Notes: generated by a model not told the origin, from the letters alone. Positions 47,651 to 64,000 are shown, numbered from the stretch's first letter. The stretch: 64,000 nucleotides of DNA from Planctomycetota bacterium (GCA_018242585.1 JAFEBQ010000026.1:79527-143526); one strand, 5' to 3'. Numbers and translations are program-made.

Positions 47651-48265
47651 ATGCGATTTCATCGAACTCCCGCCGGGCGAAACACGCGCCGCGTGCGCGA
47701 CGGCTTCACGCTTGTCGAAGCCACGGTGGCGATGGCGGTGATGAGCATCGCCAGTACGGCGGCCTTGCTGTCGATTGCCCAATCGTGCCAGACGGTCGAT
47801 AGCAGCGTGAATTCGCAGATCGCCCTGGGGCTCGCTCAGCAACTGCTCGACGAGCAGTGCGGCAAGATGTACATGGTGCCTGGTGACACGCCGACGGATA
47901 CGTACCTGGGGCCGAGTGCCGGCGAGGCGGCTTTGCCCGGACGGCAGTACAACGACATCGACGATTTCAATGGCGTGCTCTTGTCGCCGCCGACCGATTA
48001 TTGGGGCATTCCGCTGACGACCGACGACGGGGACGGCAGCACGCGCGATCCAGCCTTCAGTCTGGCGTCGGGATATCTCAACCGTTTCACGCAGAAAGCC
48101 ACGGTATCGTACGTCCAGGCGAACAGTCCCAGCACGCCGATCACCAACGGCACGACGACCTACTATCGGCTGACGCAGATTCAAATTTTGTACAACGATC
48201 CCAAGTTGGGACAGCAAACGCTGGCTTCGTTCTCAAGAGTATTCTCCTATGTGCCTGCGCCGTAA
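47651..48265 (+). CDS. prepilin-like protein (GspI/PulI-type position)
   Basis: 204 residues from ATG 47651. A type III prepilin signal: basic leader ending RRVRDG, cleavage after G18, then FTLVEA with Glu at +5, and a hydrophobic stretch TVAMAVMSIASTAALLSIAQ. The mature domain has Ser/Thr/Tyr-rich beta strands. First gene of the pilus/secretion cluster and overlaps the next start by 17 bases. It is a minor pseudopilin; the GspI-like role is inferred from order only. Processing needs a prepilin peptidase, which is not in this window. Confidence 0.85.
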   Translation: MRFHRTPAGRNTRRVRDGFTLVEATVAMAVMSIASTAALLSIAQSCQTVDSSVNSQIALGLAQQLLDEQCGKMYMVPGDTPTDTYLGPSAGEAALPGRQYNDIDDFNGVLLSPPTDYWGIPLTTDDGDGSTRDPAFSLASGYLNRFTQKATVSYVQANSPSTPITNGTTTYYRLTQIQILYNDPKLGQQTLASFSRVFSYVPAP

Positions 48266-49094
48266 TTTACGCGGCGCGCGGCCCATGGGCCGACGCCGAG
48301 GTTTGACGCTGGTCGAGTTGATGATTGCCGTCGCGATCATGACGATCATCGCCGGCACCATTTCGGCCGTGTCGATGGCCATGCAGCAAGCGTCGAACTA
48401 CACCTATGACCGCGGCACGGCCTTGCAGCACGGGCGCGTTGCGCTCGAGCGAATCAACCAGCAAATCGCCGGCGCATATACCGCGCCCGGTCACCCAGGC
48501 GTGGCGGTTTATGTCGAGACGCTGGGCACCTACCGCTATCCCGATACACTGTTGGTCTGGCGGCCGGCCGGCACGCCGGCCAACGTGAACGGCCCCCCGT
48601 TGATCAGCGAGGTTTACTTCTATTGCTTCGATCCCACCACGCCGGGCACGTTGATCGAGCTGACCGCGCCGAGCGACAACCGGACGATTCCGCTCGACGC
48701 CACGTTGCAGACGAGCACGTGGAAGACGGCGCTCGACGGCCTCAAGATGGCCTCGACCAGCAAGAAGACCACGCTGACCACGCTGCTGCGCACGGCGACC
48801 GTGACGGGCAGCGCGCCGAGTTCGATGTCCAAGACGCGCGGCGTCGTCCGCTTTGAACTGACCGTGACGCCGTCGCTGGCGAATATCACTTCCTACCAAG
48901 GGGGCAGCATCACCTGGGCAAACTTGCCTTGGCCGCAGGGGTTGTACTCGTCGCTGTTCGGCATGCGGCAAGTCTGGCTGCGGAGCGAATTGCAATTGAT
49001 GCCAGCCAGCAAAACGGGCCAGCAAGACACCAGCGGCCAATTGCCGATTCCAGTGTTCGGTTCCCAGGCCATTTACTCCTTGTTGACCCCATGA
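48249..49094 (+). CDS. prepilin-like protein (GspJ/PulJ-type)
   Basis: 281 residues. The start at 48249 overlaps the previous gene; an internal ATG (residue 13) is also possible. Prepilin signal GRRRG then LTLVELMIAVAIMTIIAGTISAVSMAM, cleavage after G18, with Glu at +5. The mature domain is long and beta-rich (ALERINQQIAGAYTAPGHPG, PDTLLVWRPAG), fitting the J-type minor pseudopilins, which are larger than I and H types. Its stop overlaps the next gene's ATG by four bases. Confidence 0.85.
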   Translation: MCLRRNLRGARPMGRRRGLTLVELMIAVAIMTIIAGTISAVSMAMQQASNYTYDRGTALQHGRVALERINQQIAGAYTAPGHPGVAVYVETLGTYRYPDTLLVWRPAGTPANVNGPPLISEVYFYCFDPTTPGTLIELTAPSDNRTIPLDATLQTSTWKTALDGLKMASTSKKTTLTTLLRTATVTGSAPSSMSKTRGVVRFELTVTPSLANITSYQGGSITWANLPWPQGLYSSLFGMRQVWLRSELQLMPASKTGQQDTSGQLPIPVFGSQAIYSLLTP

Positions 49095-50614
49095 ACGAGT
49101 TGAAGTTGGAAAACCTGACGACTACCGATGCGCTTCTCGAAGGGCCAGGTCGCCGACCGACCGGCCCGCGCGGCGGCTTTGCCACGATCATGGTCTTGTC
49201 GATGCTGGCCGTGGTGTTGACGGTTTCGTTTATCGCCCTGCGTTCCCAGACGACGCTGGTTTCGGTACAAGGCAACGCCAACCTCGATAATCTCTCGTCT
49301 CAGGCGGCATTGGCTGGATTCTCGATGGCGCTGCGCAAGATGAGCCAGACCGACTGGGGGGGCATGGACAGCAGCGTGAGTGGCACGCTGGCCACCAGCC
49401 AGTCGTTCGTCGCCCGGTACGCGACCGGCGATCCTACCCTGACGACGTCGAGCGCCAACTACAGCGACTATCCATATCGCGTGACGATCACGTCGGTGGG
49501 GACCGCGACCGATCCTGCGCGGCCCACCATTTCGGCCAAGCACACCGTGACCGCGGTGGTGCGGTTGATGCCCCGGCAAGTGCCAACCGATCCGACGGCC
49601 CTGACCACGGCGCTCAACTACACCGTCTACCAGACCGGGACCAGTACGTTCGAGCTGCAATTGCCGTGTCAAATCTCCGGCGATCTACGCATCCAGGGGA
49701 ACGTCCGCTTCTGCGACAGCTACCCGCCAAGCAACAGCGGCAATAGCCAGTATTTCTCCGACCTGAATGCGATGCGCTCGAACGGCTATGCCGACATGCG
49801 GCCGTTGACCGGCACGCTGTTCGTGCCCAGCAACCGCATCAATTCACCCACGGCGACCCTGATCACGTCGACGATGGGGGGATCGATTTCATACACCAGC
49901 TCGTCGTCAACGTCGAACTGGAGCTACCCGGGCACGATTGCCGCCTATCAGCTTTACCCTGGGGGACTGTACTACCAGGTTCCGGCATTGTCATCGACGC
50001 TGGCCAATACGACCCTGGCACCCGATCCCAAGACCAATCCCCTGGGGCTGTTTCAGCGTAGCGGCACGTTGACCATCAGCAGCAACGTCAACGTCACCGG
50101 GATGATCATTGCCTCGGGTGATGTCAACATCACCGGTCAGAACGTGACGTTGCAAGCGGCCTCGCTGCCGGCGCTCAGTGGCACGACCACACCCATTCAG
50201 TTGCCAGTGATGGTCAGTAACGGCAATTTGTACGTGGCGTCGCAAGCCAGCGCCACGGTGCGCGGCTTGATCGCGCTGTGGAGCAACTTTGACATCCAGC
50301 AGGGGAAATCATCAACCAAGTTCGACTTTCAAGGTCGGATGATCGTTGGTGGCGTGCAGGTCGAGGAACGAACCGATTGGCAACTCGGCAACACCTGGTG
50401 GAACTGGCTTTGGAACTGGTACAACGCCAGCAATGTCACCTATTATCCGATTTACTTGTCAGCCTTCGGCATGCAGCCGCAGCCGATTCTGACGATCCAG
50501 CCCGAGCAAAGTTCGGTAAACTATCAATGGAAAGACCAGTCGAACACGGTCTACGTCGCTTCGAGCTCCGACCCGGGGCTGCGGTGGACCGTGTTGAGCT
50601 GGACGATGAACTAG
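49091..50614 (+). CDS. GspK/PilX-like minor pilin-like protein
   Basis: 507 residues from ATG 49091 (ATGA overlap). After a 28-residue leader comes GGFATIMVLSMLAVVLTVSFIAL, a pilin-type N-terminus that lacks Glu at +5, as in GspK and PilX proteins that sit at the fibre tip. The large extracytoplasmic domain contains a parallel-beta-like stretch (LTISSNVNVTGMIIASGDVNITGQNVTL), reminiscent of bactofilin-like or DUF7305 segments, and a Trp-rich part (TWWNWLWNWYN). It is probably the tip or initiating subunit of the pseudopilus. Assignment is moderate. Confidence 0.8.
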   Translation: MNELKLENLTTTDALLEGPGRRPTGPRGGFATIMVLSMLAVVLTVSFIALRSQTTLVSVQGNANLDNLSSQAALAGFSMALRKMSQTDWGGMDSSVSGTLATSQSFVARYATGDPTLTTSSANYSDYPYRVTITSVGTATDPARPTISAKHTVTAVVRLMPRQVPTDPTALTTALNYTVYQTGTSTFELQLPCQISGDLRIQGNVRFCDSYPPSNSGNSQYFSDLNAMRSNGYADMRPLTGTLFVPSNRINSPTATLITSTMGGSISYTSSSSTSNWSYPGTIAAYQLYPGGLYYQVPALSSTLANTTLAPDPKTNPLGLFQRSGTLTISSNVNVTGMIIASGDVNITGQNVTLQAASLPALSGTTTPIQLPVMVSNGNLYVASQASATVRGLIALWSNFDIQQGKSSTKFDFQGRMIVGGVQVEERTDWQLGNTWWNWLWNWYNASNVTYYPIYLSAFGMQPQPILTIQPEQSSVNYQWKDQSNTVYVASSSDPGLRWTVLSWTMN

Positions 50615-50643
50615 CCGCCTCACCAGGGCAGAAGGAGTCTGAA

Positions 50644-50886
50644 ATGAGCCAAAACCGCACGTTTCGCCGGGGAAACTGGCTCCCCCTAGGATTGGTTTTC
50701 TGTGTGCTAGGGTTTTATGGCGTACTTTCGGCACAAGCGCCGCAAGTGAACCCTCCGTTCGCCAGCGCCATCGATCAGAACAACGAAATCATTTCGCAGC
50801 TCAAGGAAGTCAACCGTCAACTGCGCGAGCAGAATGCGCTGCTCCGCTCCGGACTACCTGTCACCATCGTCGAAAAGAAGAAGTAA
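50644..50886 (+). CDS. small exported or anchored protein within the pilin cluster
   Basis: 80 residues from ATG 50644, with a strong ribosome site (GAAGGAG, 7 bases upstream). A basic N-terminus (SQNRTFRRGNW) leads to one hydrophobic helix (LPLGLVFCVLGFYGVLSA), then a short coiled-coil-like segment (IDQNNEIISQLKEVNRQLREQNALLRSG) and a KKK end. It sits between the K-like and H-like pilin genes, 3 bases from the next ATG, so it is certainly part of the operon. No family recognised. It may be a signal-peptide-bearing periplasmic or a single-pass assembly factor. Confidence 0.78.
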   Translation: MSQNRTFRRGNWLPLGLVFCVLGFYGVLSAQAPQVNPPFASAIDQNNEIISQLKEVNRQLREQNALLRSGLPVTIVEKKK

Positions 50887-50889
50887 GTC

Positions 50890-51483
50890 ATGTTCAAGCG
50901 TCGCACGATTCCCGCGGGACTCACCTTGGTGGAAGTCGCCATGACGCTATTGATTTGCGCCATTCTGGCCGGCGTATTGATTGTCAGCGGCACGCCGCAA
51001 TTGGCCACCCAATTGCAGTCGGCGTGCCAGTTGGTGGCCGCCGACATGGCCCGGGCGCGGAGCCTGGCCGTGACCAATAACGACACCTATCGCTATACGT
51101 TCGACACGACCAACAACCTGTATTACCTCGAATACTCCGGCGCCAATAACACGCTGGCGACGCTCCCTTCGACGGCGTTTTACACCGGCCAGGACACGGC
51201 GACGCGGCAATATACGTTGCTGGGCAATCTGCCCGACACCAGCGCCAACGTCACCTTGTACGCAGTGGGAAGCAACGGCTCGACGCCGGCTCCTCGCACG
51301 CAAGTCGAGTTCGCCGCTTATGGCCAGACGACGCAAGTCGACGAGACGGTCATTTGGCTGACCACGGGCTCGGGCGCCGCGCAACTTTACCAATTTGTCC
51401 GCGTGAACCCGATCACCGGGCTGGCCACGGTCGAGGCTTTGCAAGCCACGGCTCCGTCGTCAGCCATTGTCAGTGGCAGCTGA
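50890..51483 (+). CDS. prepilin-like protein (GspH/FimT-type)
   Basis: 197 residues. Prepilin signal with leader MFKRRTIPAG, cleavage after G10, then LTLVEVAMTLLICAILAGVLIV with Glu at +5. The following LQSACQLVAADMARARSLAVTNNDTYRYTFD is the typical GspH/FimT continuation, in which a long helix leads into the globular beta domain. Together with the I-, J- and K-like genes it completes a minor pseudopilin set. The major pilin is not in the window and may lie beyond its end. Confidence 0.88.
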   Translation: MFKRRTIPAGLTLVEVAMTLLICAILAGVLIVSGTPQLATQLQSACQLVAADMARARSLAVTNNDTYRYTFDTTNNLYYLEYSGANNTLATLPSTAFYTGQDTATRQYTLLGNLPDTSANVTLYAVGSNGSTPAPRTQVEFAAYGQTTQVDETVIWLTTGSGAAQLYQFVRVNPITGLATVEALQATAPSSAIVSGS

Positions 51484-51536
51484 ACACTGTTCTGGCAGCC
51501 TGCCGCCAGTTGTTTTTCCGAAAAAGTTGAACGGTC

Positions 51537-52586
51537 ATGATTCGATTACTCACCAAGCGCCAATGCGGTTCGATCGGCATCGATCTGGGCACGCGCGCGC
51601 TCAAGCTGGTGCAATTGGATCATGACCGCGCTCAGATCGTCGACGCGGTTCGCTGGGATTTGCCATTCGATGCCCAGGGAGACGCGCGCGGCCAACTGGT
51701 CCGCGCCTTGCAACAAGCTCGCGAAGGGCGCAAATTCCGCGGCCGCGACGCGGTGATCTGCCTGGGAGCCAGCGAGTTGTTCGTGCAAAATGTCCGCGTG
51801 GCCAAGCCGGCGGCTGGCGGCGACATCGAACCCTCGGTCCATCAGGAGATGAGCGCGCGGTTGCCGTTTCCGGCCCAGGAAACCGAACTGCGATTCATCG
51901 AAGCCGCCGACGTGCGACAAGGCGACGCGGTTCGTCGCGAGGTGATTGTTACCGCTTGCCATCGACCGATCCTGGACGAGCGTCTGCAACTGATCGAGGA
52001 CGCTGGTTTCCGCCCGCGCGCGGTCGAGTTGGAAGCCAGCGCCTTGCTGCGCTGTTACGAATTGCAATATCGCCGCGACAACGATCGCGACCAGCGGGTG
52101 ATGTACGTCCACGTCGGCAATTCAAGCACGACGGTAATGATCGCCCGGAACGATGAAGTCTCGTTCTTGAAATATATCGATATCGGCGGTCGGCACTTCG
52201 ACGAGGCGCTGGCCCGCGGCTTGAAGATGACCGTGGCCGACGCCTGGGGCCTGCGACGTCACAATGGCGACCGGCGCGTCGATCAGCAGGATCCTGAAGT
52301 CGCGCGGAGCGTGAACGAAGCGGTTCGCCCCGTGCTGGAGCGCTTATTGGGTGAAGTCGCCCTGTGCATACGCTATCACAACGTCACCTTTCGCGGCCAG
52401 GCGCTGCAGCGCGTGGTGCTGGCGGGCGGCGAAGCGACCTCGGTGCTGGCCGAGCGGATGTCGACGGCGCTGAATGCCAAGTGTGAATTGGGAAACCCGC
52501 TGCGCAGTTTCGAGTCGACCCCGCTCGCCGGGCGTAACACGCAATGGGATGTGGCCATCGGCCTGGCGCTGAGGCCAACCGAATAG
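51537..52586 (+). CDS. pilM: pilus assembly protein PilM
   Basis: 349 residues. Actin-like ATPase of the type IV pilus inner-membrane platform. SIGIDLGTRALKLVQLD forms the first phosphate loop, ELEASALLRCYELQY and MYVHVGNSSTTVMIARNDEVSFLKYIDIGG the second phosphate region, and VVLAGGEATSVLAERMS the adenosine motif. It sits in the cytosol bound to the N-terminal tail of PilN. Full length for the family, and followed at once by pilN/O/P-like genes. Confidence 0.92.
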   Translation: MIRLLTKRQCGSIGIDLGTRALKLVQLDHDRAQIVDAVRWDLPFDAQGDARGQLVRALQQAREGRKFRGRDAVICLGASELFVQNVRVAKPAAGGDIEPSVHQEMSARLPFPAQETELRFIEAADVRQGDAVRREVIVTACHRPILDERLQLIEDAGFRPRAVELEASALLRCYELQYRRDNDRDQRVMYVHVGNSSTTVMIARNDEVSFLKYIDIGGRHFDEALARGLKMTVADAWGLRRHNGDRRVDQQDPEVARSVNEAVRPVLERLLGEVALCIRYHNVTFRGQALQRVVLAGGEATSVLAERMSTALNAKCELGNPLRSFESTPLAGRNTQWDVAIGLALRPTE

Positions 52587-52607
52587 CGGCGCGCGTTCCA
52601 GCGAATC

Positions 52608-53351
52608 ATGAGCACGAACATCAAACAAATCGATTTCCTGCCCGACCGCTACCGGCAGGTTGACGTGCAACGCCACTCGAAGTGGTGGCGGATGCTCGTG
52701 CTCGTTCTGTTTGGCGGCGCGATTTGCGCCACCCAGGTTGGGCAGATGTGCCAGCGACGCCAGGTGCAGGCTCAACTCGACGACGCCACGCTCCATTACC
52801 AAGCCGCCCAATTGGAAAGCCAGAAGCTCGCCAATATCCGCCAGACGCTGGTACCCCTGCGTGCGAAGGCGGAACTGCTTACGTACCTGCGCCACCCCTG
52901 GCCCCGCTCGCAGTTGCTGGCCTCGATCGCCGCGCCGTTGCCCAATGATGTGCTGCTGGAACGCGTGCGCTTTCAGCGCGAGCAGATTCGCACGGAACCC
53001 ACGGTGGCCGCGCCACCACCCCAGCCAGGCGTCGCGGCGGCTGACATGCGCACCCCCGTCGAACGCGACCTGGAAAAAGTTCGTGATGAAGCCGACCAGT
53101 CGCGCATCGTGATCTACCTGGAAGGGACGACGCGCGACGACGCCTCGCTGCACAACTACTTGAGCCTGCTGACACGCGAACCATTGCTGGCCGAAAACGA
53201 ATTGGCTTCGCTGGAACGGGACCAGGCGCATTTACGCTTTACCGTCCGAGTTCTAGTTCGCCCGGGTTACGGCCAACGGCGCGGGCCCGCCGGTCCGCGA
53301 CCAGCCGAGTCGACAGTCGGCGCGTTAAGTCCCCTGACGCCCAATCCCTAA
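52608..53351 (+). CDS. pilN: PilN-like assembly protein
   Basis: 247 residues, start 22 bp after pilM. The N-terminal IKQIDFLPDRYRQ stands where PilN has its INLLP motif that binds PilM. One membrane segment follows (WWRMLVLVLFGGAICATQV, about 24-42), then a coiled coil (RRQVQAQLDDATLHYQAAQLESQKLANIRQ) and a periplasmic ferredoxin-like domain with a Pro-rich insert (VAAPPPQPGVAA). It is larger than usual PilN (about 200) because of the insert and a Pro-rich tail. Confidence 0.85.
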   Translation: MSTNIKQIDFLPDRYRQVDVQRHSKWWRMLVLVLFGGAICATQVGQMCQRRQVQAQLDDATLHYQAAQLESQKLANIRQTLVPLRAKAELLTYLRHPWPRSQLLASIAAPLPNDVLLERVRFQREQIRTEPTVAAPPPQPGVAAADMRTPVERDLEKVRDEADQSRIVIYLEGTTRDDASLHNYLSLLTREPLLAENELASLERDQAHLRFTVRVLVRPGYGQRRGPAGPRPAESTVGALSPLTPNP

Positions 53352-53369
53352 CCGCATGCCGCCACGATC

Positions 53370-53918
53370 ATGTTCGATCGCCTGAAGAACAAAACCTGGC
53401 TGGTCACGATGCCCATCGCACTGGGGACGGTCGCTTACGTTTGGCTGCTCTTCCTGCCGGCTCAGCGCGAGGTGGCCGCCATGGGTACCGACATCCAGAA
53501 CAAACTGGCCTTCGCCATGACCGCCGACAAGCTGCGCGCCGAAATTCGCAGCGCCCAGGCCGAGCAAGCCGAAATCGAAACCTACGTCGCCGATTGGCAA
53601 GGTCCGTCAAGCAGCAGTGCCGACCTGGCCCAGGTGTTCTCACGCCTGGCCGACGCCATGCGCGACGCTGGCGTCGAGGCGACCCGCTTTACGCCTGACA
53701 GCCGAACTTCGCTGGCCCAGATGCAGCGCGTTTCGGTACGCATTGGTTGCCGGGGGAGCTATTCGCAATTGCTGCAGTTGCTAGCGGCCTGGGAGCGGTT
53801 GCCGGCGCGAATCTGGGTCGAGGATCTGAATATCCATCATGGCAGCGATGCCACCGCGAAGTTGGAATGCGAGGCAAACCTGGCAATCTTTGCCGTAAAT
53901 TCCGATCAGACTGAATAG
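53370..53918 (+). CDS. pilO: PilO-like assembly protein
   Basis: 182 residues. Single N-terminal membrane helix (WLVTMPIALGTVAYVWLLFLP), coiled coil (RAEIRSAQAEQAEIETYVADW), then a PilO/GspM-type ferredoxin-like domain (LAQVFSRLADAMRDAGVEATRF, then YSQLLQLLAAWERLPARIWVEDLNI). PilO pairs with PilN to join the cytosolic platform to the secretin through PilP. It is 18 bp downstream of the PilN-like gene. Confidence 0.87.
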   Translation: MFDRLKNKTWLVTMPIALGTVAYVWLLFLPAQREVAAMGTDIQNKLAFAMTADKLRAEIRSAQAEQAEIETYVADWQGPSSSSADLAQVFSRLADAMRDAGVEATRFTPDSRTSLAQMQRVSVRIGCRGSYSQLLQLLAAWERLPARIWVEDLNIHHGSDATAKLECEANLAIFAVNSDQTE

Positions 53919-53988
53919 GGAAACTTTTCTGGCCGATAACAGAAGAGCCCGCGTGGTATAGCGCCGCTGTGCTGCCGGGCCGTGTGAG

Positions 53989-54663
53989 ATGACCGTGTCA
54001 CTATCACGTTACGCCAACCAATTACAACGCGAGTTGAAGGCCAACCAGAAGAAGGCGGCCATGCTCGGACTGCTCGGCCTGGTGGCTGTGTGGTTCTGGC
54101 TGCCGTTGCTGATGCCGAAGAGCACTGCCGCTGCGGCACCCGCGCCGTCGCCAGTAGCCGCGGGGACTGCTCCGGCGCCGGCTTCGCCAATCAATCACGA
54201 CAACAAGGCGCCAACTTGGCGCTGGCAAGACCTGGACCAGTGGATGACCGCCGATTTGGAAACCAAGCCGTTCGTGTGGACCGAGGATCAAGGGCGCAAC
54301 CCGTTCGCCCTGGTCAAGCTGCCACCGAGTGAAACAGAAATTGCCGAGGCCCAGGCTAAAGCCGCCCAACAGGAACAGGCGGTTCAACAGAGCCGGTCGG
54401 TATGCACGCCACAAGAGTCAGGCCTGGAACTGAGCAGCACCATGATCGCGCGAGTGCGCAAGGCAACGATCAATGGCAAGACCTACCAGCTTGGCGACGA
54501 GGTGCCGGTCAGCCGGGCGATTGTCTTCACGCTCGTCGGCGTCGAAGTGGGGCATGTGGTTCTCGCCCGTGAAGGTAGTGAGTTTCCCTTGAAGATTCGC
54601 CGCAACACAATGACCAGCAACCAACCGACCGGCAAGCAGACCGCGGCGGCCCTAACGCCTTAA
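53989..54663 (+). CDS. PilP/GspB-like assembly protein
   Basis: 224 residues. A basic N-terminus, a membrane segment (AAMLGLLGLVAVWFWLPLLM, about 23-43), an Ala/Pro-rich linker, then a short RNPFALVKLPP motif as in PilP/GspB linkers and a C-terminal HR-like beta domain (LSSTMIARVRKATINGKTYQLGDEVP, then VFTLVGVEVGHVVLAREG). PilP is normally a lipoprotein; this one has a membrane helix and no lipobox, so it resembles GspB/GspC more. It links the inner-membrane platform to the secretin encoded next. Confidence 0.8.
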   Translation: MTVSLSRYANQLQRELKANQKKAAMLGLLGLVAVWFWLPLLMPKSTAAAAPAPSPVAAGTAPAPASPINHDNKAPTWRWQDLDQWMTADLETKPFVWTEDQGRNPFALVKLPPSETEIAEAQAKAAQQEQAVQQSRSVCTPQESGLELSSTMIARVRKATINGKTYQLGDEVPVSRAIVFTLVGVEVGHVVLAREGSEFPLKIRRNTMTSNQPTGKQTAAALTP

Positions 54664-54698
54664 CACCGCGGGGCGAACGCCCCCCTATTGCGTCACGG

Positions 54699-57167
54699 AT
54701 GACGATGAACCGATCGTTGAAAGCATGGCTGTTGATGGGCTGTGGCGCGCTGGGCGTGACCACCGCCGTCATGCTCGCTCTGTTCACGACTCCGCGGTCG
54801 GCGACCGTCGCGAGCGTGGCTCCGTCGATTGTTGTCAAAGCTCGCGTCGAGCCCGTGCCGCAACTCAGCCAGCCCGACGGCCCTCGCGCGGTCGAAATGT
54901 TGCCGCCAGCCACCACGTCTCATCCCAGCGAGCCTCCCGCGCCGCCGGTGTTCAGCTATGGCTATCCCCAGGCGATGCGCACCGAGCCGCGAATTGCCGG
55001 GCCCACGACGCTGCGCGTGGCGGCCTTGCCGCCGACGATGGCCACTTCGAACCCGATCAGCCCCGACCAGGCGGCCGCGATCCTGAGCCAGTATCCACCC
55101 GAGAAGCAGCAAGCGCTGCAGCAGGCGCTCACTACGATTCAATCGAATCCCGAGATGATGCAGCAGGTCTTGAATGGGCAAATGCCGGCCGGCTTCCCTC
55201 CCGAAGTGAAGCAGATGCTCACGCAAAGCGCGCAGGCGGCCGCGACGCAAAACCAGGCGGGAGCGGCGCCCGGCGGACCAGCCATTGCCCCGCCGGTAAA
55301 TGCGGCCCCCACTCCAGCGCGGGGCGCGGACGATCCGAATGTCGTGGGACCAGCAGCGCAACCGAAGGCTGAACTCCCGGCCCCGGCCGAGCCGGCCGGC
55401 AAGTCGGAATTCGTAATGAAGAAGGACGCCGACGGCGTGCAGAAGATCACGCTGAACATGCAGTCGGCCGACCTGCGCGATGTGCTCGACTTGCTCAGTG
55501 AGCAGGCCGGCTTGAACATCCTGGCTAGCGCCAACGTCGAGGGACGCGTTACCGCGGTCCTCAACAACGTGGAAGTCGACGATGCCCTGGACGCCATTCT
55601 GAAGAGCACGGGCTTTGTCAGCCGGCGCGAAGGGGCCTTCCTATACGTGGGTACGCCGAAGGATTTCGCCGACTTGCGAGTCGCGCTCGACAAGATCGGC
55701 ACGCGCGTCTATCGGCCCAATTACGTGCCCGCCAAGGAATTGATGGCGTTGCTGACGCCGCTGTTGACGCCGTCGGTCGGCAAGCTGAGCGTAACCACGC
55801 CGGCCCAAATTGGCATTGCCGTGAACAGTAACGACGCCGGCGGCGACGGCCCGGCGCACGGCGAGGCGGTGCTGGTCCAGGACTACGAAGCCGTCCTTTG
55901 CCAGATCGACGAAGTCGTGCGTGAACTCGATCGGCGGCCGATGCAAGTGGCGATCGAGGCGATGGTCCTCAGCGTCACGCTCAATGACCAAAACCAATTC
56001 GGCGTCAATTGGCAATTCCTCCGCGATCAACAGAACGTCCGCTTTGGCATCGGCCAGCCGCGCGTCAATCCGCTGAACGGCACGGGTGTGCCCGACGGCA
56101 CCACCGGCGGCACCGTGGGGCAGTTCAATTTCACCCAAGGAGGGCTGTCATTCGCCTTTCTGGATGATTCGCTCGGCGTGTTCATCACGGCCTTGGAAAC
56201 GATCGGCGACATCAACGTCATCGCCCAGCCGCGGCTGTTGTGCCTGAACAAGCAGCGCGCCGAGATTCTGATTGGCTCGCAGATTCCGTACACGACCTCG
56301 ACCGTTACTCAAACCTTCACGACGCAGACGGTCCAGTTTCTGGACATTGGCACGCAACTGCGCTTGCGGCCGTTCATTTCGGCCGATGGGTCGATTCGCA
56401 TGGAGGTTCACCCCGAAATCTCCAGCGCCGGTCAAAGCGTGAACAACGTGCCATCCAAGAACGTCACGCAAGTCACCACCAACATCATGTGCTACGACGG
56501 TTGCACGGTGATCATCGGCGGCTTGCTGGAAGAAGACTTGCAGAGCAATACGACGCAAGTGCCGTTCATCGGCAGCCTGCCGTACGTCGGACAGTTGTTC
56601 CGCACCAAGACCGACTCGATCGTGCGCCGCGAAATCCTGGTGCTGGTCACCCCGCGGATTGTCTACTCGCCGGATTACGACGCGGAAAGCGTCGAAGATC
56701 GACAAGACTTTGAACGCCGACAGACCGTGGCCCGCGACGGCCAGACCCTGCTGAGCCGGTCGCACTCGGCTCGTCGGTTCATTCGCCGCTCGCGCGAAGC
56801 GATCGAACGAGGGGATCTGATTACTGCCCGTCGTTATGCCGACATGGCCGTCAAGTTCGATCCCAGCAACCGCGAGGCGATGGATTTACGAACCGAGCTG
56901 ATGGGGACGCCGACGTTGCGCCGGCCCGAACCGCTGGACCGCAAGGTCGATCGCACGTTGCGAAACACGATGCCAAACACGCCGCCGGCGCCTCCGGCCA
57001 ACGACACGACTGCAAAACTGCTCGACGGCGAAAACGTCTCGCCCTGGCTGCTCGATGAATTGCAGGGACGACCGGGCACTGGTCGGGCCATGCACCCGAA
57101 GGATCCGGGCATCTCCGGCGAGATCCGCTCCATCAAGGTTCCGGAAGCGGTGAGCGATGGGAAATAG
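54699..57167 (+). CDS. type II/IV secretin (GspD/PilQ family)
   Basis: 822 residues. A signal/anchor segment (LKAWLLMGCGALGVTTAVMLALF) is followed by a long Pro/Ala/Gln-rich region to about 240. STN/N0-like domain at about 247-325 (ITLNMQSADLRDVLDLLSEQAGLNILASANVEGRV), N1-like domain to about 400, and the secretin channel at about 410-657 (RPMQVAIEAMVLSVTLNDQNQFGVNW, EILIGSQIPYTTST, VTTNIMCYDGCTVIIGGLLEEDL, LVLVTPRIVYSPD). Past the secretin, about 165 more residues include a TPR-like helix pair (EAIERGDLITARRYADMAVKFDPSNREAMDL). It forms the outer-membrane pore of the machine. Confidence 0.92.
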   Translation: MTMNRSLKAWLLMGCGALGVTTAVMLALFTTPRSATVASVAPSIVVKARVEPVPQLSQPDGPRAVEMLPPATTSHPSEPPAPPVFSYGYPQAMRTEPRIAGPTTLRVAALPPTMATSNPISPDQAAAILSQYPPEKQQALQQALTTIQSNPEMMQQVLNGQMPAGFPPEVKQMLTQSAQAAATQNQAGAAPGGPAIAPPVNAAPTPARGADDPNVVGPAAQPKAELPAPAEPAGKSEFVMKKDADGVQKITLNMQSADLRDVLDLLSEQAGLNILASANVEGRVTAVLNNVEVDDALDAILKSTGFVSRREGAFLYVGTPKDFADLRVALDKIGTRVYRPNYVPAKELMALLTPLLTPSVGKLSVTTPAQIGIAVNSNDAGGDGPAHGEAVLVQDYEAVLCQIDEVVRELDRRPMQVAIEAMVLSVTLNDQNQFGVNWQFLRDQQNVRFGIGQPRVNPLNGTGVPDGTTGGTVGQFNFTQGGLSFAFLDDSLGVFITALETIGDINVIAQPRLLCLNKQRAEILIGSQIPYTTSTVTQTFTTQTVQFLDIGTQLRLRPFISADGSIRMEVHPEISSAGQSVNNVPSKNVTQVTTNIMCYDGCTVIIGGLLEEDLQSNTTQVPFIGSLPYVGQLFRTKTDSIVRREILVLVTPRIVYSPDYDAESVEDRQDFERRQTVARDGQTLLSRSHSARRFIRRSREAIERGDLITARRYADMAVKFDPSNREAMDLRTELMGTPTLRRPEPLDRKVDRTLRNTMPNTPPAPPANDTTAKLLDGENVSPWLLDELQGRPGTGRAMHPKDPGISGEIRSIKVPEAVSDGK

Positions 57168-58560
57168 CGCACGACAAATCGGCGCCATCGCGATAGGGCT
57201 ATGCCTATTGGCTGGCTGCGGCGCGCTGCGCCGCCAATTGGTGGCCGAGGATGTCCGGCCGATGCGCGCCAAGCGTATGGCGGCCGCTTGCCAGGACTTT
57301 GAATCGCGCCGCGATCAGGCCCAATTGGCTGCGGCCAAGTCGTTCCTCGATCATCAGAACTACCGGGCCTGCAACGAACAGCTTAGGCCACTCATCGAGC
57401 GCAATCCCAAGCTGCGCGAGGCTCATTTGCTATTGCTCGAATCGCTGGCCGCCGACGAACGCTGGGACGAGGCCTGCAAGCGTGGAGGGCAAGTACTGGC
57501 CGCGTTTCCCGAAGACGCCGACGCCTTGCACGCCGTGGCCGTGGTCTACGACGCTGCCGGTCATGAGAAAGACGCCTTGGCCTGTTTCGATCGGGCGGCG
57601 CGCGCCGAGGGAACCGCGCCCGCTCCGATCGATCGGGTGACCCAGGCCCATCGTACGCGACGTGTCAGCCAGTCCATCGGGCGCTCGGCCAAAAAGGCGT
57701 CATTAGCGATGCCTGAACCGCCCAGCGAGGAGGCCTCGGGCGATTTGCTGAAGGCTGAACTCAGTGTTGCGCTCGGCGACGAGAACGAAGGCGCCGAGCG
57801 TGTCGGCGCGCTGCAACAGCGGCATCCCGACGCCGATGCAGTGAACGAACTCGCGGCCCGCGTGGGAGTTGACGCCATGCCCGTGCCGCCGCCCGACGTG
57901 CCGGAAACCGCCCCCGTTTCCAATCAAGCTCCAGCGCGAGGCGACTCCAGTGACTCACGCCACTCGGGGGCCAGTTCGCGTCGCCAGGCGCGGCGCCCCG
58001 ACGAGCCTCGCATCCTTCGCCTTTCGGCCGACGGTCCCAGTGATCGCACACCCGCCGAGTCGAACGCGCCAGGGCGATTGAACACGAACGCTCGACCGCT
58101 GCTTCCCACCGATCACATCGCGGCCAAGCCCGAGACTGCCGGGCGGTTGTTGGCCTTGGCAACCAAGGCCCTGGCGTCCGATAACGTGACCACCGCCGAG
58201 AAATATCTGACGCGGTTGATCGACCAGACGGACACCACCGAAGCCGAGGCAATCGACGCGGCAGTGTTACCCCTCAGGCATGAACAGCCGGAATTATCGG
58301 CACAACTGTGCGCGGCGGCGCGGGAACGCTGGCCGCGTGCGGTGCGACTGCTTGAAATCGAAGGAACCGCCCAGTACCGCCTGAAGCGTTATCAAGAGGC
58401 TCGCGGCGCCTTGGAGCGGGCCGTAGCCCTCGACGAAGCGCGGGCCACCACGCATTTCCTGCTGGGGGCGACGTTGCGTCAACTGGGCGAAGATGACGCC
58501 GCCCAGGAGCATCTGCAACGGGCCCGGCAACTCGACCGCCGGTTCGCCACTCAGCCCTAG
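57157..58560 (+). CDS. TPR-repeat lipoprotein
   Basis: 467 residues. The start overlaps the secretin gene by 11 bases, so it is cotranslated. Lipoprotein signal ending LLAGC (C21). TPR-like helix pairs follow: LAAAKSFLDHQNYRACNEQLRPLIERNPKLREAHLLLLESL, WDEACKRGGQVLAAFPEDADALHAVAVVYDAAGHEKDALACFDRAARAE, and at the C-terminus YQEARGALERAVALDEARATTHFLLGATLRQLGEDDAAQEHLQRARQLD. A disordered Pro/Ser/Arg-rich part (about 240-320) separates them. Probably a pilotin-like or scaffold lipoprotein for secretin assembly, in the manner of PilF/PilW, though this is inferred from context. Confidence 0.87.
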   Translation: MGNSARQIGAIAIGLCLLAGCGALRRQLVAEDVRPMRAKRMAAACQDFESRRDQAQLAAAKSFLDHQNYRACNEQLRPLIERNPKLREAHLLLLESLAADERWDEACKRGGQVLAAFPEDADALHAVAVVYDAAGHEKDALACFDRAARAEGTAPAPIDRVTQAHRTRRVSQSIGRSAKKASLAMPEPPSEEASGDLLKAELSVALGDENEGAERVGALQQRHPDADAVNELAARVGVDAMPVPPPDVPETAPVSNQAPARGDSSDSRHSGASSRRQARRPDEPRILRLSADGPSDRTPAESNAPGRLNTNARPLLPTDHIAAKPETAGRLLALATKALASDNVTTAEKYLTRLIDQTDTTEAEAIDAAVLPLRHEQPELSAQLCAAARERWPRAVRLLEIEGTAQYRLKRYQEARGALERAVALDEARATTHFLLGATLRQLGEDDAAQEHLQRARQLDRRFATQP

Positions 58561-58861
58561 ACGCCGTCACAATCGGCGCGACCGGCGTAGACGGAATTGC
58601 GTTCGGTCCTCTCTGACGTTGCCGTATGTGCGACATCGCACTGGCGGTTGCAAGTTGCGGCCCTCTTCGGGCCTGAGCGCGTAACCCGCCCTTAACGGCA
58701 AGCTACAATTTCGCGCCATTCGTGTTGCCAAAAAGAGACCCACCGAGGGGATAACCCCCAAGCCGGGTCTGGCAGCCGTCGGATCGTTCGACGTGCGATC
58801 ATAGTTCGCTCCTCGACGATTTCCGAGACGCTACCACGATCAGATCACTTGCCGTGTGCGA

Positions 58862-60355
58862 ATGATGAAGGCGTTGAACAAAGGAAACGGTTGGGCAGTT
58901 GAAGCGAGCCTGTCGATCGGCGCACTCGCGCTATCGACAGGTTGCGCCGTCGCGCTGCTTGCGCCGACGTCGCTGGGTCGTTTGACCCAGTGGTGCTTGT
59001 TCCTCTGCTCAGCACTAGTCGCGGCTTGTGTCGCCGACTACCTGCGGCGGCGTCAGGTGAAACAACTACGCGAGGCGCGGCAATTCATCACCCGCCTGGC
59101 CGATTTCGATCAACCAGGCCAGTCGGCTTCGGCGGTGCTCGACTCGTTGCCCTCGATCGATAATGGCACGCCGTGCGCGTCGGCCTTGTTCCGGCTGCGC
59201 GATGTGCTGGCCGCCCAGGCCGCTCGCCAGGCCGACGCCGACCACGCCCGCACGGCGCTCGAATTGCGCTGCCGCCGGGAAGCCGCTGAAAAGGAACGCG
59301 CGCTGGCCATCGTCGACAAGATCGACGCTCCGGTCCTGGTGGTCGACCAGTTCGACGAATTGCTGCTGGCCAATGAAACGGCCGAGTCGCTGTTGTCGCT
59401 TGATCTCGGGAAGGCCGAGACGCGTGTCTTCTCGCGGCTGGCCCACTGCGACAAGCTGGTCGCGCTGTTGGCCGATGCCCGCCGCCGCAAAGGTCCGGTG
59501 GCGAAAAGCGAAGACATCGAGTTTGAAACGGCCGGCGGCGAACGCCGCGCCTACAACGTCTTGGTCACCAATCTGGCCGACGAAGCCAATGCCGATGAAC
59601 AATCGGGCAGCCAAGGCGTGGTGGCCGTACTGCGTGATGTAAGCACGACGAAAGAACTGCTCCGCAGTCATGCTGAATTTGTTTCCAACGCCAGCCATGA
59701 GATGAAAGCCCCGCTGGCCGGCATCAAGGCCTATGTCGAGATGTTGGCCGATGGCGAGGCCGAAGACGCGGAAACCCGGGACCAATTCCTGGAAGTCATC
59801 GCCGGACAGACCGAGCGTTTGCAACGACTGATCGAGAACCTGTTGAACATCGCCCGCATCGAAGCTGGCGTGGTCAAGGTCAGCAAGCAAAGCCAGTCGC
59901 TGAACGATGTGCTGAACGACGCGATCCGCGTGGTCCAGCCGATGGCCGAGGCCAAGCAGATTTCCTTGCGGGCTGAGTTGAGCCCGCTGTACCTGGGCGT
60001 TTTTGTCGATCGCGACCTGATGCTGCAAGGCGCGCTCAACCTGTTGTCGAACGCGGTCAAGTACACGGCGCCGGGCGGGCTGGTGACGCTGCGCAGCAGA
60101 CTGGATGACGGCCAGGTGCAATTCGAGGTCGAAGACACCGGCGTCGGGCTGTCCCCCAAGGATTGCCAGCGCGTGTTCGAGAAGTTTTACCGCGTCGAGA
60201 AAGACACGCAGATGGCCTCGGGCACGGGCCTGGGGTTGCCGCTGGCGCGGCACATTGTCGAGGACGTGCATGGCGGCAAGCTGACGCTGACCAGCCAGTT
60301 GGGCGTGGGCAGTACGTTCCGGATCAACCTGCCGGCGGCCAATCGGAACACTTGA
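58862..60355 (+). CDS. PAS-domain sensor histidine kinase
   Basis: 497 residues from ATG 58862; a GTG at 58856 or ATG at 58865 are alternatives. Two membrane helices near the N-terminus (about 12-33 and 40-58) enclose almost no periplasmic loop. A helical linker, then a PAS domain (about 150-265: IVDKIDAPVLVVDQFDELLLANETAESLL). The HisKA box is SNASHEMKAPLAGIKAYVEML with His at about 279. HATPase motifs: NLLSNAVKYTAPGG (N box), VEDTGVGLS (G1), FEKFYRVE (F box), GTGLGLPLARHIV (G2). It resembles PhoR-type kinases. It leads the kinase-receiver-STAS set placed within the pilus cluster. Confidence 0.94.
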   Translation: MMKALNKGNGWAVEASLSIGALALSTGCAVALLAPTSLGRLTQWCLFLCSALVAACVADYLRRRQVKQLREARQFITRLADFDQPGQSASAVLDSLPSIDNGTPCASALFRLRDVLAAQAARQADADHARTALELRCRREAAEKERALAIVDKIDAPVLVVDQFDELLLANETAESLLSLDLGKAETRVFSRLAHCDKLVALLADARRRKGPVAKSEDIEFETAGGERRAYNVLVTNLADEANADEQSGSQGVVAVLRDVSTTKELLRSHAEFVSNASHEMKAPLAGIKAYVEMLADGEAEDAETRDQFLEVIAGQTERLQRLIENLLNIARIEAGVVKVSKQSQSLNDVLNDAIRVVQPMAEAKQISLRAELSPLYLGVFVDRDLMLQGALNLLSNAVKYTAPGGLVTLRSRLDDGQVQFEVEDTGVGLSPKDCQRVFEKFYRVEKDTQMASGTGLGLPLARHIVEDVHGGKLTLTSQLGVGSTFRINLPAANRNT

Positions 60356-60401
60356 TCGCAGTGGGGCGTTCTGAGGTTTACAGCTCACGGGACGGAACAT
60401 C

Positions 60402-60794
60402 ATGGGAAAACGAATCCTGCTGTGCGACGACGAGTTGCACATCACCAAGGCGGCGGAGTTCAAGCTGGTCCGAGCCGGCTATGAGGTCGAGTGCGCGTGT
60501 GATGGCGAGTTCGGTTGGCAGGCGATTCAACGCGTGAAGCCGGACCTGCTGATCACCGACTGCCAGATGCCGCGACTCAACGGCCTGCAACTGGTCGAGC
60601 GCATTCGCCAGCAGCCCGAGCTGCAATCGATGCCGATCTTCATGCTGTCGGGCAAGAGCATGGAATTGTCGCACGAAGAGTTGGCTCGGCGCTGGGACGT
60701 GCGGGCCGTGTTGGGCAAGCCATTCAGCCCACGCGAGTTGTTGACCCTGGTTGAACAAGCCATCGGCGTGGCCCACGAGCCGGCCACCGTCTAG
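60402..60794 (+). CDS. stand-alone CheY-like response regulator
   Basis: 130 residues, a receiver domain only. Acidic pocket CDDE (9-11), phosphoacceptor Asp53 in LLITDCQMPRLNGL, switch Ser in FMLSGKS and Lys in LGKPF are all present. No DNA-binding output domain, so it must act by protein contact. It lies 47 bp after the histidine kinase and 44 bp before the STAS gene. Likely substrate of that kinase and regulator of the STAS protein or the assembly ATPase, though this is inference from position. Confidence 0.93.
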   Translation: MGKRILLCDDELHITKAAEFKLVRAGYEVECACDGEFGWQAIQRVKPDLLITDCQMPRLNGLQLVERIRQQPELQSMPIFMLSGKSMELSHEELARRWDVRAVLGKPFSPRELLTLVEQAIGVAHEPATV

Positions 60795-60837
60795 TCGATC
60801 GGACGCGGACGAAACGACGGGGGCGAGGGACTAGGCG

Positions 60838-61164
60838 ATGAATCTGACCACGGAAATCTTTGGCGGCGTGATCGTCGTCCACACTCCCGAGGAGGTGGCG
60901 AACGAGCAAGCGTCCGAAATCTCGGTCGCGCTTTGCCAATTGGAACGCCGCAATTTGGTCGTGGATTTGGACGCCACCGAAACGATCGACAGCAAGGGGT
61001 TGACCGCGCTGGTCGAGGCGCAAGACTCGCTGCGCGGGCTAGGGGGGGAGCTGAAGCTGGCCACGACGAATCTGCAGAACCGCAAGATTCTAGAGATCAC
61101 GCGGCTGGATCAGCGGTTTGAAGTATTCGAAAGCGTCGTCGACGCGGTACGCAGCTACCAATAG
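60838..61164 (+). CDS. STAS domain protein (anti-anti-sigma-like)
   Basis: 108 residues, a single STAS domain: VIVVHTPEEVANEQASEISVALC, then NLVVDLDATETIDSKGLTALVEAQDSLRGLGGELKLATTN, then RFEVFESVVDAVRSY. Ser52 in the IDSKGL motif is at the position phosphorylated in SpoIIAA-type antagonists. No anti-sigma kinase (RsbW type) or sigma factor is adjacent; the neighbours are a receiver and the secretion ATPase. It may work in a partner switch controlling the machine, not a sigma factor. Confidence 0.9.
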   Translation: MNLTTEIFGGVIVVHTPEEVANEQASEISVALCQLERRNLVVDLDATETIDSKGLTALVEAQDSLRGLGGELKLATTNLQNRKILEITRLDQRFEVFESVVDAVRSYQ

Positions 61165-61177
61165 CGCGAGGACGTCG

Positions 61178-62947
61178 ATGACCACTCCCAATCAACCGCC
61201 GCTTCGCCTGGGAAATCTGCTGGTCGAGCGTGGCTACGTCACGCAAGAGAAGCTCGAGGCCGCGCTCAGCGAGCAGCACGACAGCAATAAGACCAAGCTG
61301 CTGGGCGAGATTCTGGTCGAGATCGACGCGTGTACCGAGGACCAGATCGCCGAGTGCATCGCGCACGAATACCGGCTCCCCTACGCCAAGCTCGAAACGC
61401 GCATCTTCGACAACAAGATCGTCGATGTCTTGCCGCGCGAGTTCATCGAAAAGAACCTGGTCCTGCCGCTGTTTCAGGTGGGCGACACGTTGACGCTGGC
61501 GGTCTGTGAGCCGGCCAACCTGTTCTTGTTCGAGGAAGTGGCCACGCTGTCCCGCTGCAAGGTACAGGTGGTGGTGTCGACGGCGAAAGACATTCGCCGC
61601 ATGCTCACCACGCTGCCCAACTCGAAGGTGTTCGTCATCGACGACATCATCGACGAGTCCGAGGCCGGCGACGTCGAGTTGATTGAAGAGGCGATCGAAG
61701 ACATCGGCAACATCGAGGAATCGGCCGGCATGTCGCCGGTGATCCGGCTGGTGAACTTCATCATCTACAACGCCGTCAAGGAAGGAGCCAGCGATATCCA
61801 CATCGAACCGGCCGAGCGCGTGCTGCGGGTGCGCTATCGCATTGACGGCCGGCTGTACAAGTCGCTCGAAGTGCCGGTCCACTTGCTGAACGCGGTTACC
61901 AGCCGTATCAAGATCATGGGCGGCATGGATATCAGCGAGCGCCGCTTGCCGCAGGACGGCCGCATCCACGTGATGCTCGACGGTCGCAAGATCGACTTGC
62001 GCTGCAGCACGTTTCCGACCACCCGCGGCGAAAAGACGGTGATTCGCGTGCTCGACACGCGCAGCGTCTCGCTGGTGCTCGAAGAACTGGGCTTTTCGGA
62101 AGACATCCTGACCGACCTGCAAGGGAACATCCGCGAGCCGAACGGCATCTGTCTGGTCACTGGTCCGACCGGCAGCGGTAAGAGCACCACGCTCTACGCC
62201 TGCTTGAACTCGATCAGTTCAATGGAAAACAACATCTGCACGGTTGAAGACCCGATCGAATACAACTTGCCGCTGATCAACCAATTCCAGGTGCAAGACC
62301 GCATTGGGCTGACCTTCGCCAAGGCGCTGCGAACCCTGTTGCGGCAAGACCCCGACGCGATCATGGTCGGCGAAATCCGCGACGAGGACACGGCTCGCAC
62401 CGCCATCCAGGCGGCGCTGACCGGCCACATGGTGTTCAGCACGCTGCACACCAACGACGCCTGTTCGGCGATTACGCGGCTGATCAATATCGGCGTTGAG
62501 CCGTACCTGATCGGCGCGGCGTTGAATATGGTGCTGGCCCAGCGGCTGGTGCGGCGGATCTGCTCGAAATGTCGCCAGGCCTACGAGCCGCCGCGCACGC
62601 TCCGTCGCACGGTCGAGCGGATGGGCTACCCGATGGAAACCTACTATCGCGGCATCGGCTGCAAACGCTGCCGCAACACCGGCTATACCGGCCGCGTGGG
62701 TATCCACGAATTGTTGAACATTACTGATGAGCTGCGCGACGTGATCGTCTCGAACCCGTCGGTGATCAACATCCGGCAAATCGCCCAGCGCAATGGAATG
62801 GTCACGCTCCGACATGACGGCTTCCGCAAGGTGCGCGAAGGGCTGACCACGGTCGAGGAAATCATGCATGTCGTCGGCGACGCGGGCGAAACCGGCGAGG
62901 CGCCGAACGCCGAAGCGGTCGCCGCCGCCACGGGAGATGAATCATGA
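61178..62947 (+). CDS. pilB: type IV pilus/type II secretion ATPase (PilB/GspE)
   Basis: 589 residues from ATG 61178, with GAGGA 6 bases upstream and only 13 bases after the STAS stop. N-terminal MshEN-like domain (LRLGNLLVERGYVTQEKLEAALSEQ, about 6-35, and a second half to 150). ATPase core: VTGPTGSGKSTTLYACLNS (Walker A, about 327-345), Asp box, DPDAIMVGEIRDEDTA (Walker B), and TGHMVFSTLHTNDACSA (His box). A tetracysteine zinc site (CSKC at about 462 and CKRC near 495) is intact, as in assembly, not retraction, ATPases. It drives fibre extension. Confidence 0.94.
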   Translation: MTTPNQPPLRLGNLLVERGYVTQEKLEAALSEQHDSNKTKLLGEILVEIDACTEDQIAECIAHEYRLPYAKLETRIFDNKIVDVLPREFIEKNLVLPLFQVGDTLTLAVCEPANLFLFEEVATLSRCKVQVVVSTAKDIRRMLTTLPNSKVFVIDDIIDESEAGDVELIEEAIEDIGNIEESAGMSPVIRLVNFIIYNAVKEGASDIHIEPAERVLRVRYRIDGRLYKSLEVPVHLLNAVTSRIKIMGGMDISERRLPQDGRIHVMLDGRKIDLRCSTFPTTRGEKTVIRVLDTRSVSLVLEELGFSEDILTDLQGNIREPNGICLVTGPTGSGKSTTLYACLNSISSMENNICTVEDPIEYNLPLINQFQVQDRIGLTFAKALRTLLRQDPDAIMVGEIRDEDTARTAIQAALTGHMVFSTLHTNDACSAITRLINIGVEPYLIGAALNMVLAQRLVRRICSKCRQAYEPPRTLRRTVERMGYPMETYYRGIGCKRCRNTGYTGRVGIHELLNITDELRDVIVSNPSVINIRQIAQRNGMVTLRHDGFRKVREGLTTVEEIMHVVGDAGETGEAPNAEAVAAATGDES

Positions 62948-64000
62948 GCACTGCTTTTGCCTACAAGGCACGCGACCCCCAGGGAAGCTTGCACGAAGGA
63001 CAAATTGAGGCCGCCAGCGCCGAAGACGCCGGCCAGCAATTGCGCCGCGACGGCTTCACCGTGCTGGAAATCAACGAAGACCTCTCGCCACCGCCGAGCT
63101 TGTTTCCGCGCCGAGTCACCCGGGCCGAAGTGGTCTACGCCAGCACGCAATTGGCGGTGATGATCGACACCGGCATCGCGCTGGCCGAGGCGCTCGAATC
63201 GATGGCCGCTCAGGAAGAGAACCCCACCTTGAAGCGTGTCTTGCTCGAATTGCACGACAGCGTGCAACAGGGCGAAGACTTCTCGCTCGCACTGGCCAAG
63301 CATCCCAAGCTGTTCGACAAGACTTACGTTTCGCTCATCAAGGCCAGCGAAGCGACTGGTACGATGGGGCCGATGCTCGAACGGATTGCCACCTATTTGC
63401 GCAAGGAACTGGAAAGCCGGGCCAGAGTCCGGGCCGCGCTGGCCTACCCGATGGTCATGTTGGTGCTGGCCGTGATGGTCACGATCTTTTTGCTGACCTA
63501 CGTCATGCCCCAGTTCGCGCCGATGTTCGCCAGTCGCGGAACCAAGCTGCCGTTGCCGACCAAGGTAATGATGGCCGCCTCGAACGTGCTGGTGAACCAG
63601 TGGTACTGGTGCTTGCTGGGGACCACCGTGGTCGTGGGGGGGCTGATTTACGGGCTACGAACCGAAGCGGGCAAGAAGGTCTGGGACGGCATCAAGATCC
63701 GAGCGCCGCTGTTGGGAACGATGTCACGCAAGGTTGCTATCGGCCGCAGTATCCGCACCCTGGGCACGATGATGGGGAGCGGCATTCCGGTGCTCGACGC
63801 GCTGAAGCTTTCGGCCGACGTGGCGGGCAACTGGTATTACGAACAACTCTGGAAGCACGTCTCGGATCAGGTCGTCGAAGGGCAGCAGATTCACGAGTCG
63901 CTAGCTGGCCAGCCGTTGTTTCCTCAGATGCTGGTCCAGATGATCTCGGCCGGCGAGCGGACGGGTCGCCTGGGCCAGGTGCTGGAACGAGTCAGCGACT
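62944..64000 (+). CDS. pilC: inner-membrane platform protein PilC/GspF, 5' part
   Basis: The ATG overlaps the ATPase stop (ATGA). The frame is open to the window edge, 352 residues, so about 50 are missing. N-terminal STAFAYKARDPQGSLHEGQIEAASAEDAGQQLRRDGF is the T2SS/T4P F-protein start. The first GspF domain (about 65-185) ends in membrane helix VMLVLAVMVTIFLLTYVMP. A second helix is at about 220-240, followed by the second GspF domain (IGRSIRTLGTMMGSGIPVLDALKLSA, then MISAGERTGRLGQVLE). It works with the ATPase and the PilM-N-O platform. Confidence 0.94.
   Translation, partial: MSTAFAYKARDPQGSLHEGQIEAASAEDAGQQLRRDGFTVLEINEDLSPPPSLFPRRVTRAEVVYASTQLAVMIDTGIALAEALESMAAQEENPTLKRVLLELHDSVQQGEDFSLALAKHPKLFDKTYVSLIKASEATGTMGPMLERIATYLRKELESRARVRAALAYPMVMLVLAVMVTIFLLTYVMPQFAPMFASRGTKLPLPTKVMMAASNVLVNQWYWCLLGTTVVVGGLIYGLRTEAGKKVWDGIKIRAPLLGTMSRKVAIGRSIRTLGTMMGSGIPVLDALKLSADVAGNWYYEQLWKHVSDQVVEGQQIHESLAGQPLFPQMLVQMISAGERTGRLGQVLERVSD

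Follow-up and report, generated by a model that had tools for sequence, protein, structure and literature searches.

The 64,000 nt stretch of DNA analysed here (the window; Planctomycetota bacterium, GCA_018242585.1 JAFEBQ010000026.1:79527-143526, with coordinates counted from its first letter) belongs to a genome of 5.57 Mb and carries on its + strand a type IV pilus/type II secretion-like cluster, which runs from pseudopilin-like genes through pilC. Within this cluster, four consecutive + strand genes encode a membrane histidine kinase (HK; 58862..60355; Pfam HisKA 7e-19, HATPase_c 3e-26), a single-domain receiver (RR; 60402..60794; Pfam Response_reg 2e-20, residues 5-117 of 130), a STAS protein with the SpoIIAA/RsbV fold (60838..61164; Pfam STAS 5e-11), and a PilB/GspE-type assembly ATPase with an MshEN N-domain (61178..62947; Pfam T2SSE 3e-136, MshEN 8e-15). 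The intergenic gaps are 46 bp (HK/RR), 43 bp (RR/STAS), and 13 bp (STAS/pilB). The pilC/gspF platform gene follows on the same strand (62944..64000, continuing beyond the window end; full length in locus L131, 471-1673; NCBIfam GspF 365 bits, under its cut-off). The placement of a STAS gene before pilB, usually with a HK and a receiver, points to a pilus motor that is switched on and off directly, as judged from sequence comparisons.

The AlphaFold2 model of the STAS protein (predicted local distance difference test, pLDDT, 92.9) is nearest to the anti-sigma antagonists TM1442, TM1081, RsbV, and SpoIIAA (template modelling score, TM-score, 0.86 to 1vc1; Z 17.1 to 3f43), and the fold is more distant from MlaB (TM-score 0.54-0.58, compared with about 0.86 for SpoIIAA/RsbV). 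The sequence scores 40.2 against TIGR00377 ant_ant_sig, below the cut-off of 53.45. Ser52, at the phospho-site position (DSKGL; codon 60991-60993), is retained in 129 out of 130 distinct pilB-linked STAS proteins, including those from loci without HK and RR. The lone exception (L205, 3564-3885) has Gly at this position (IDGAGL), with HK, RR, and pilB all present. Such conservation would be compatible with a phospho-switch, and also with a residue at an interface. In a tree of STAS proteins, those linked to pilB are strongly clustered (2 changes, compared with 10.2 in shuffles), a pattern that allows for one origin or several. A scan of viral contigs with the STAS protein found no relative. The Planctomyces limnophilus STAS structure (PDB 3t6o) was considered as a structure of this protein and rejected, since the presumed orthologue in P. 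limnophila gave matches that did not include it.

The HK starts with an ATG at 58862, with a GTG at 58856 as a possible alternative start, and has two predicted transmembrane (TM) helices joined by a very short loop, a coiled coil that is long in the AlphaFold2 model, PAS, HisKA, and HATPase_c. The phospho-acceptor His279 (codon 59696-59698) is conserved among relatives. Against NCBIfam, the HK scores as PhoR/PnpS/WalK-like, every one of these scores being under the curated cut-off. The RR is a receiver of 130 aa with no output or DNA-binding domain in Pfam; its active residues D9, D10, D53 (codon 60558-60560), and K106 are present and conserved among relatives.

An earlier note on this DNA had described a PAS histidine kinase, a receiver without an output domain, and a STAS protein with the phospho-Ser position kept, lying between the secretin/TPR part and the assembly ATPase. 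The position agrees with the gene coordinates and Pfam domains, Response_reg is the sole domain of the RR, and the near-invariance of Ser52 bears out the claim for the STAS protein. For the kinase, HisKA and HATPase_c are clear; the PAS domain is under the Pfam threshold in the window HK, and is backed by its detection in 22 of 26 orthologues and by a PAS-like strand-helix-strand block (residues 158-259) in the AlphaFold2 model (pLDDT 82). The 13 bp gap had been given correctly, but those of 47 and 44 bp are each off by one.

The ATPase has the features that define PilB/GspE, a T2SSE domain with an MshEN N-domain, and its gene is beside pilC/gspF and a secretin gene. Its closest PDB sequence matches are the PilB chains 5zfr/6olj/5tsg. 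Scores for both curated equivalogs fall short of their cut-offs (PilB 602.9, cut-off 675.65; GspE 585.5, cut-off 630.25), therefore it is a PilB-type ATPase, yet neither the curated PilB nor the curated GspE of NCBI. The cyclic di-GMP (c-di-GMP) motif of the MshEN domain (residues 10-63, RLGNLLVERGYVTQEKLEAALSEQ; 61205..61366, + strand) scores 52.1 bits against NCBIfam NF053729, over the curated cut-off of 38, and the MshE c-di-GMP domain structure 5htl aligns with PilB residues 8-121; the N-domain is a predicted c-di-GMP-binding MshEN domain. In one Planctomycetales locus (L092), a PilT-like ATPase, recognised from its sequence rather than by family search, is encoded between pilB and pilC (8645-9712), which speaks for a type IV pilus that can retract rather than for a system of secretion alone.

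Gene order was compared across Planctomycetota genomes, many of the relatives being metagenome assemblies. Among 57 related Pirellulales genomes, a STAS orthologue (at least 48 % identity) is present in 30 and a PilB orthologue (at least 67 %) in 29. The two co-occur in the same genomes, the extra STAS gene being at a contig end, and the rest of the 57 have neither. Loci from these genomes, from named contigs, and from 40 further genomes make up 82 distinct Pirellulales STAS loci; across the order, the search detected the STAS gene in 82 out of 396 genomes. The cluster also occurs in a record titled Candidatus Nealsonbacteria (L058), a title that is probably wrong. In 79 of the 82 loci pilB is directly 3′ of the STAS gene, the other three ending at a contig or stretch boundary, and RR directly adjoins STAS in 80. 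Where there is enough contig, HK and RR precede STAS in all but one genome; the exception is L075 (from the same genome as L025), which has RR-STAS-pilB, with HK absent despite room for it. Recurrence of the order in every other locus with enough contig is not due to chance.

Comparisons across the phylum show the same pairing amid varied neighbours. In 392 Planctomycetota genomes, STAS is directly 5′ of pilB for all 42 of the PilB proteins most similar to that of the window (52-100 % identity). PilB types of lower similarity (about 40-50 % identity) differ in this respect, several having STAS upstream and others lacking it there (for example L144, L149-L152, and L154). The arrangement HK-RR-STAS-pilB-pilC is found in the Pirellulales and two Planctomycetales genomes. 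The remaining Planctomycetales have HK-RR-GGDEF-STAS-pilB, the added gene encoding a GAF and GGDEF protein with an intact GGEEF. HK-RR-HD-GYP-STAS-pilB-pilC is present in families f24, f77, f84, f95, f106, and f113 (20 distinct loci). RR-HK-STAS-pilB also occurs. Both HK and RR are absent from G284 (HD-GYP-STAS-pilB) and from family f61 (L146, L148, L155, and L156), which has a minimal secretin-STAS-pilB-pilC; the f61 STAS proteins also lack the C-terminal end that other relatives conserve. Some genomes have a second, paralogous pilus cluster, HK-STAS-pilB-pilC (L115, L118, L122, L124, and L130) or RR-HK-STAS-pilB-pilC (L121 and L158), its PilB being about 40 % identical. The cluster order is retained over about 20 families and, with changes, over the phylum. 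This variety of neighbours around a constant STAS-pilB pair identifies the pair as the stable core, to which two-component genes and c-di-GMP enzymes are attached as inputs.

The c-di-GMP enzyme is part of the module in sister clades, where it occupies a slot between RR and STAS (L092 4916-6469, L103 4577-6226, and L110 4569-6236). The slot encodes a GAF-GGDEF diguanylate cyclase in the Planctomycetales and an HD-GYP phosphodiesterase in the other families. In L143, the gene in this slot has a degenerate GGDEF (GGATM). Mere relocation of such a gene in the window's genome was considered and rejected, as the unlinked proteins show GGDEF-domain similarity only (40 % at most), with no clear orthologue.

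Elsewhere, the window's genome encodes four receiver-RsbW (REC-RsbW) fusions, on contigs C9, C22, C7, and C16 (L032-L035), three PP2C proteins, and five further STAS proteins. The four RsbW and three PP2C proteins served as tblastn queries against about 1.28 Mb of locus sequence. At the STAS-pilB loci, this search detected neither an RsbW kinase nor a PP2C, and gave only a few weak receiver-PP2C matches, read as receiver-domain similarity. As a positive control, the search did detect RsbW/PP2C next to STAS genes without a pilB link (L107, L116, L119, L123, and the genome's own C9 cluster), therefore the STAS-pilB loci lack the classical kinase/phosphatase pair in cis. The earlier note's statement that no RsbW is nearby stands for the locus, with the qualification of the four fusions elsewhere. 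The conservation of HK-RR-STAS-pilB order in planctomycetes, which it had put forward as a check, came out strongly positive, although the invariant core is STAS-pilB rather than HK-RR-STAS, HK and/or RR being missing in several lineages. Of its reading as a phosphorelay or partner switch acting on the ATPase or platform, the motor output is supported by the conserved order, by the lack of RsbW/PP2C in cis, and by the stable STAS-pilB adjacency; a strict partner switch would need an RsbW-type kinase in trans.

The rest of the cluster is on the + strand 5′ of the HK. Pseudopilin-like genes (47.5-51.5 kb) are followed by pilM and pilN-, pilO-, and pilP-like genes (51537..54663), of which pilM (51537-52586) has Pfam PilM_2 at 3e-26 and the others were recognised from their size, from gene order, and from tblastn matches showing that relatives conserve them. 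Then come the secretin (pilQ) of the same machine (54699..57167; Pfam Secretin 1e-41) and a TPR lipoprotein-like gene (57157..58560; Pfam TPR). The TPR gene and the HK lie 295 bp apart with no gene in between, therefore HK-RR-STAS-pilB-pilC may be a separate transcription unit, and the earlier placement of the three genes inside a pilus/secretion operon holds for position, but is qualified as to a single operon. This gap contains a possible hairpin (58720-58790; AGACCC ... GGGTCT) with no Rfam match. When 48000-64000 was searched with Rfam for riboswitches (a c-di-GMP aptamer, for instance), no match was above chance, and a promoter/terminator scan gave a count not above that in shuffles. Just past the window, 480 bp 3′ of pilC, are genes for an NtrB-like histidine kinase and an NtrC-type sigma-54 activator (L131, 2153-5165). 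This HK-NtrC pair was rejected as a conserved PilSR-like part, being kept in none of the 23 loci with room for it.

Most of what is known of STAS proteins comes from sigma-factor switches, anion transporters, and the Mla transporter. The locus resembles SpoIIAA/RsbV-RsbW switches in the STAS fold and the DSxGL phospho-site, but differs in having no RsbW kinase or PP2C. It resembles PilS-PilR in having a two-component pair beside pilus genes; however, PilR is an NtrC-type transcription activator, and this RR has no DNA-binding domain. In the Mla system, the STAS protein MlaB binds the ATPase MlaF with Thr52 at the contact centre and no phosphorylation known (PMC7367683). Both there and here a single STAS protein, with a hydroxyl residue at the phospho-site position, is encoded with a motor ATPase, the gene being fixed beside the ATPase gene, and MlaB is required for ATPase assembly. 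The partner here is a T2SSE-type PilB rather than an MlaF-type ABC ATPase, the residue is Ser rather than Thr, and the Mla system has no HK/RR or c-di-GMP enzyme. In Pseudomonas aeruginosa, HsbR-HsbA-HsbD ties a STAS protein to both a receiver and a diguanylate cyclase (PMC5085249), likewise in control of a surface-lifestyle machine. There, however, HsbR, the receiver protein, both phosphorylates and dephosphorylates the STAS protein, and FlgM, an anti-sigma factor, is among the partners; at the present locus the RR has Response_reg only, with no receiver protein bearing STAS kinase/phosphatase domains nearby, and the fixed neighbour is PilB. Cyanobacterial receiver proteins, the PATAN regulators, bind PilB1 (PMC12288463). 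These PATAN/CheY-like regulators of Synechocystis (PixG and relatives) similarly act on a pilus motor and not on DNA, but have a PATAN domain and a chemotaxis-like system upstream, with no STAS protein. Control of MshE/PilB by c-di-GMP through MshEN is shared to the extent that the N-domain motif is over the NCBIfam cut-off, but the described systems have no STAS or two-component partner.

Since STAS-pilB adjacency is the most stable feature, no sigma-factor circuit is present in cis, and the order is conserved, the pilus motor is the best reading of the output. It is proposed, with a probability of roughly 55 %, that PilB has in the STAS protein a regulatory subunit of its own, which is fed by HK and RR, with c-di-GMP as a co-input. 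The membrane HK would sense a signal through its TM/PAS part and phosphorylate the lone RR, as expected from established two-component biochemistry. The RR would then act on STAS or PilB rather than on DNA, a step suggested by adjacency and the lack of an output domain, with PATAN-PilB1 binding as the precedent. Most likely, STAS contacts PilB, or PilB in complex with PilC, by way of the helical face around Ser52, which may itself be phosphorylated, and this binding would gate motor assembly or ATPase activity, with a presumed effect on pili. Binding of c-di-GMP to the MshEN motif of PilB would be a second input, its enzyme being encoded within the cluster in sister clades. The survival of STAS-pilB adjacency where HK and/or RR have been lost (f61, G284, and L075) supports this proposal. 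Several points weigh against it or limit it. The Gly of L205 indicates that Ser phosphorylation is not essential everywhere; the fold is nearer SpoIIAA/RsbV than MlaB, making the MlaB parallel a functional one only; mutual-information covariation among HK, RR, STAS, and PilB, with about 60-78 effective sequences, did not resolve the HK-RR positive control; and adjacent genes can share expression without physical contact. A broader version is more tentative, with rather less than an even chance: a Planctomycetota-wide module, not described before, in which the PilB hexamer would have STAS as an obligate subunit that can be switched. STAS would then combine the HK/receiver signal with c-di-GMP made or destroyed locally, and so decide whether a pilus is built, which may be the fibre of crateriform structures.

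Alternatively, STAS could be a constitutive, non-switching structural subunit of PilB, as MlaB is for MlaF, with HK and RR acting separately, for example through direct action of the RR on PilB/PilC like a PATAN/CheY regulator. Besides the MlaB precedent, the loci with STAS-pilB and no HK/RR and the Ser-to-Gly change in one genome agree with this, but it leaves the near-invariance of Ser52 and the close association of RR with STAS in the Pirellulales to be explained, and is considered unlikely. A true partner switch in trans, in which a REC-RsbW phosphorylates Ser52 and free STAS releases that kinase or an anti-sigma factor, with transcription of pilus/adhesion genes as the output, draws on the retention of Ser52, the nearest folds being RsbV/SpoIIAA, and the REC-RsbW and PP2C proteins in the genome. 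However, such a switch would not require fixed adjacency to pilB, no STAS-pilB locus has a kinase or phosphatase of that type, STAS has been kept by lineages that lost HK and RR, and at least one RsbW has a STAS neighbour of its own (contig C9, where STAS, REC-RsbW, and receiver-PP2C genes are together; L168); it is therefore thought rather improbable. It is very unlikely that HK and RR control something unrelated (a phosphate sink, cross-talk, or transcription via another RR) in a co-expressed, vertically inherited neighbourhood, since, despite the similarity of the HK to PhoR/WalK-type kinases and the HK-NtrC pair right after pilC in this genome, the order has been held over so many families, whereas that pair has not.

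Each part of the proposed PilB regulatory system is of a known kind, but the combination and its fixation across the phylum appear to be new. STAS is not mentioned in a 2024 review of PilB cofactors (PMC11656802), and full-text searching of the open-access literature, which is incomplete, on STAS with type IV pili or Planctomycetes turned up no account of a STAS-PilB pairing. The opposite enzymes, diguanylate cyclase and HD-GYP, found in one slot are a natural experiment on whether c-di-GMP control is positive or negative. Genetic tools are available for the phylum (PMC11958385). A type IV pilus-like nature and binding to polysaccharides have been suggested for planctomycete fibres and crateriform structures (PMC8303584); if the proposed control of PilB by the STAS protein is true, it would provide a genetic handle on these fibres and crateriform structures.

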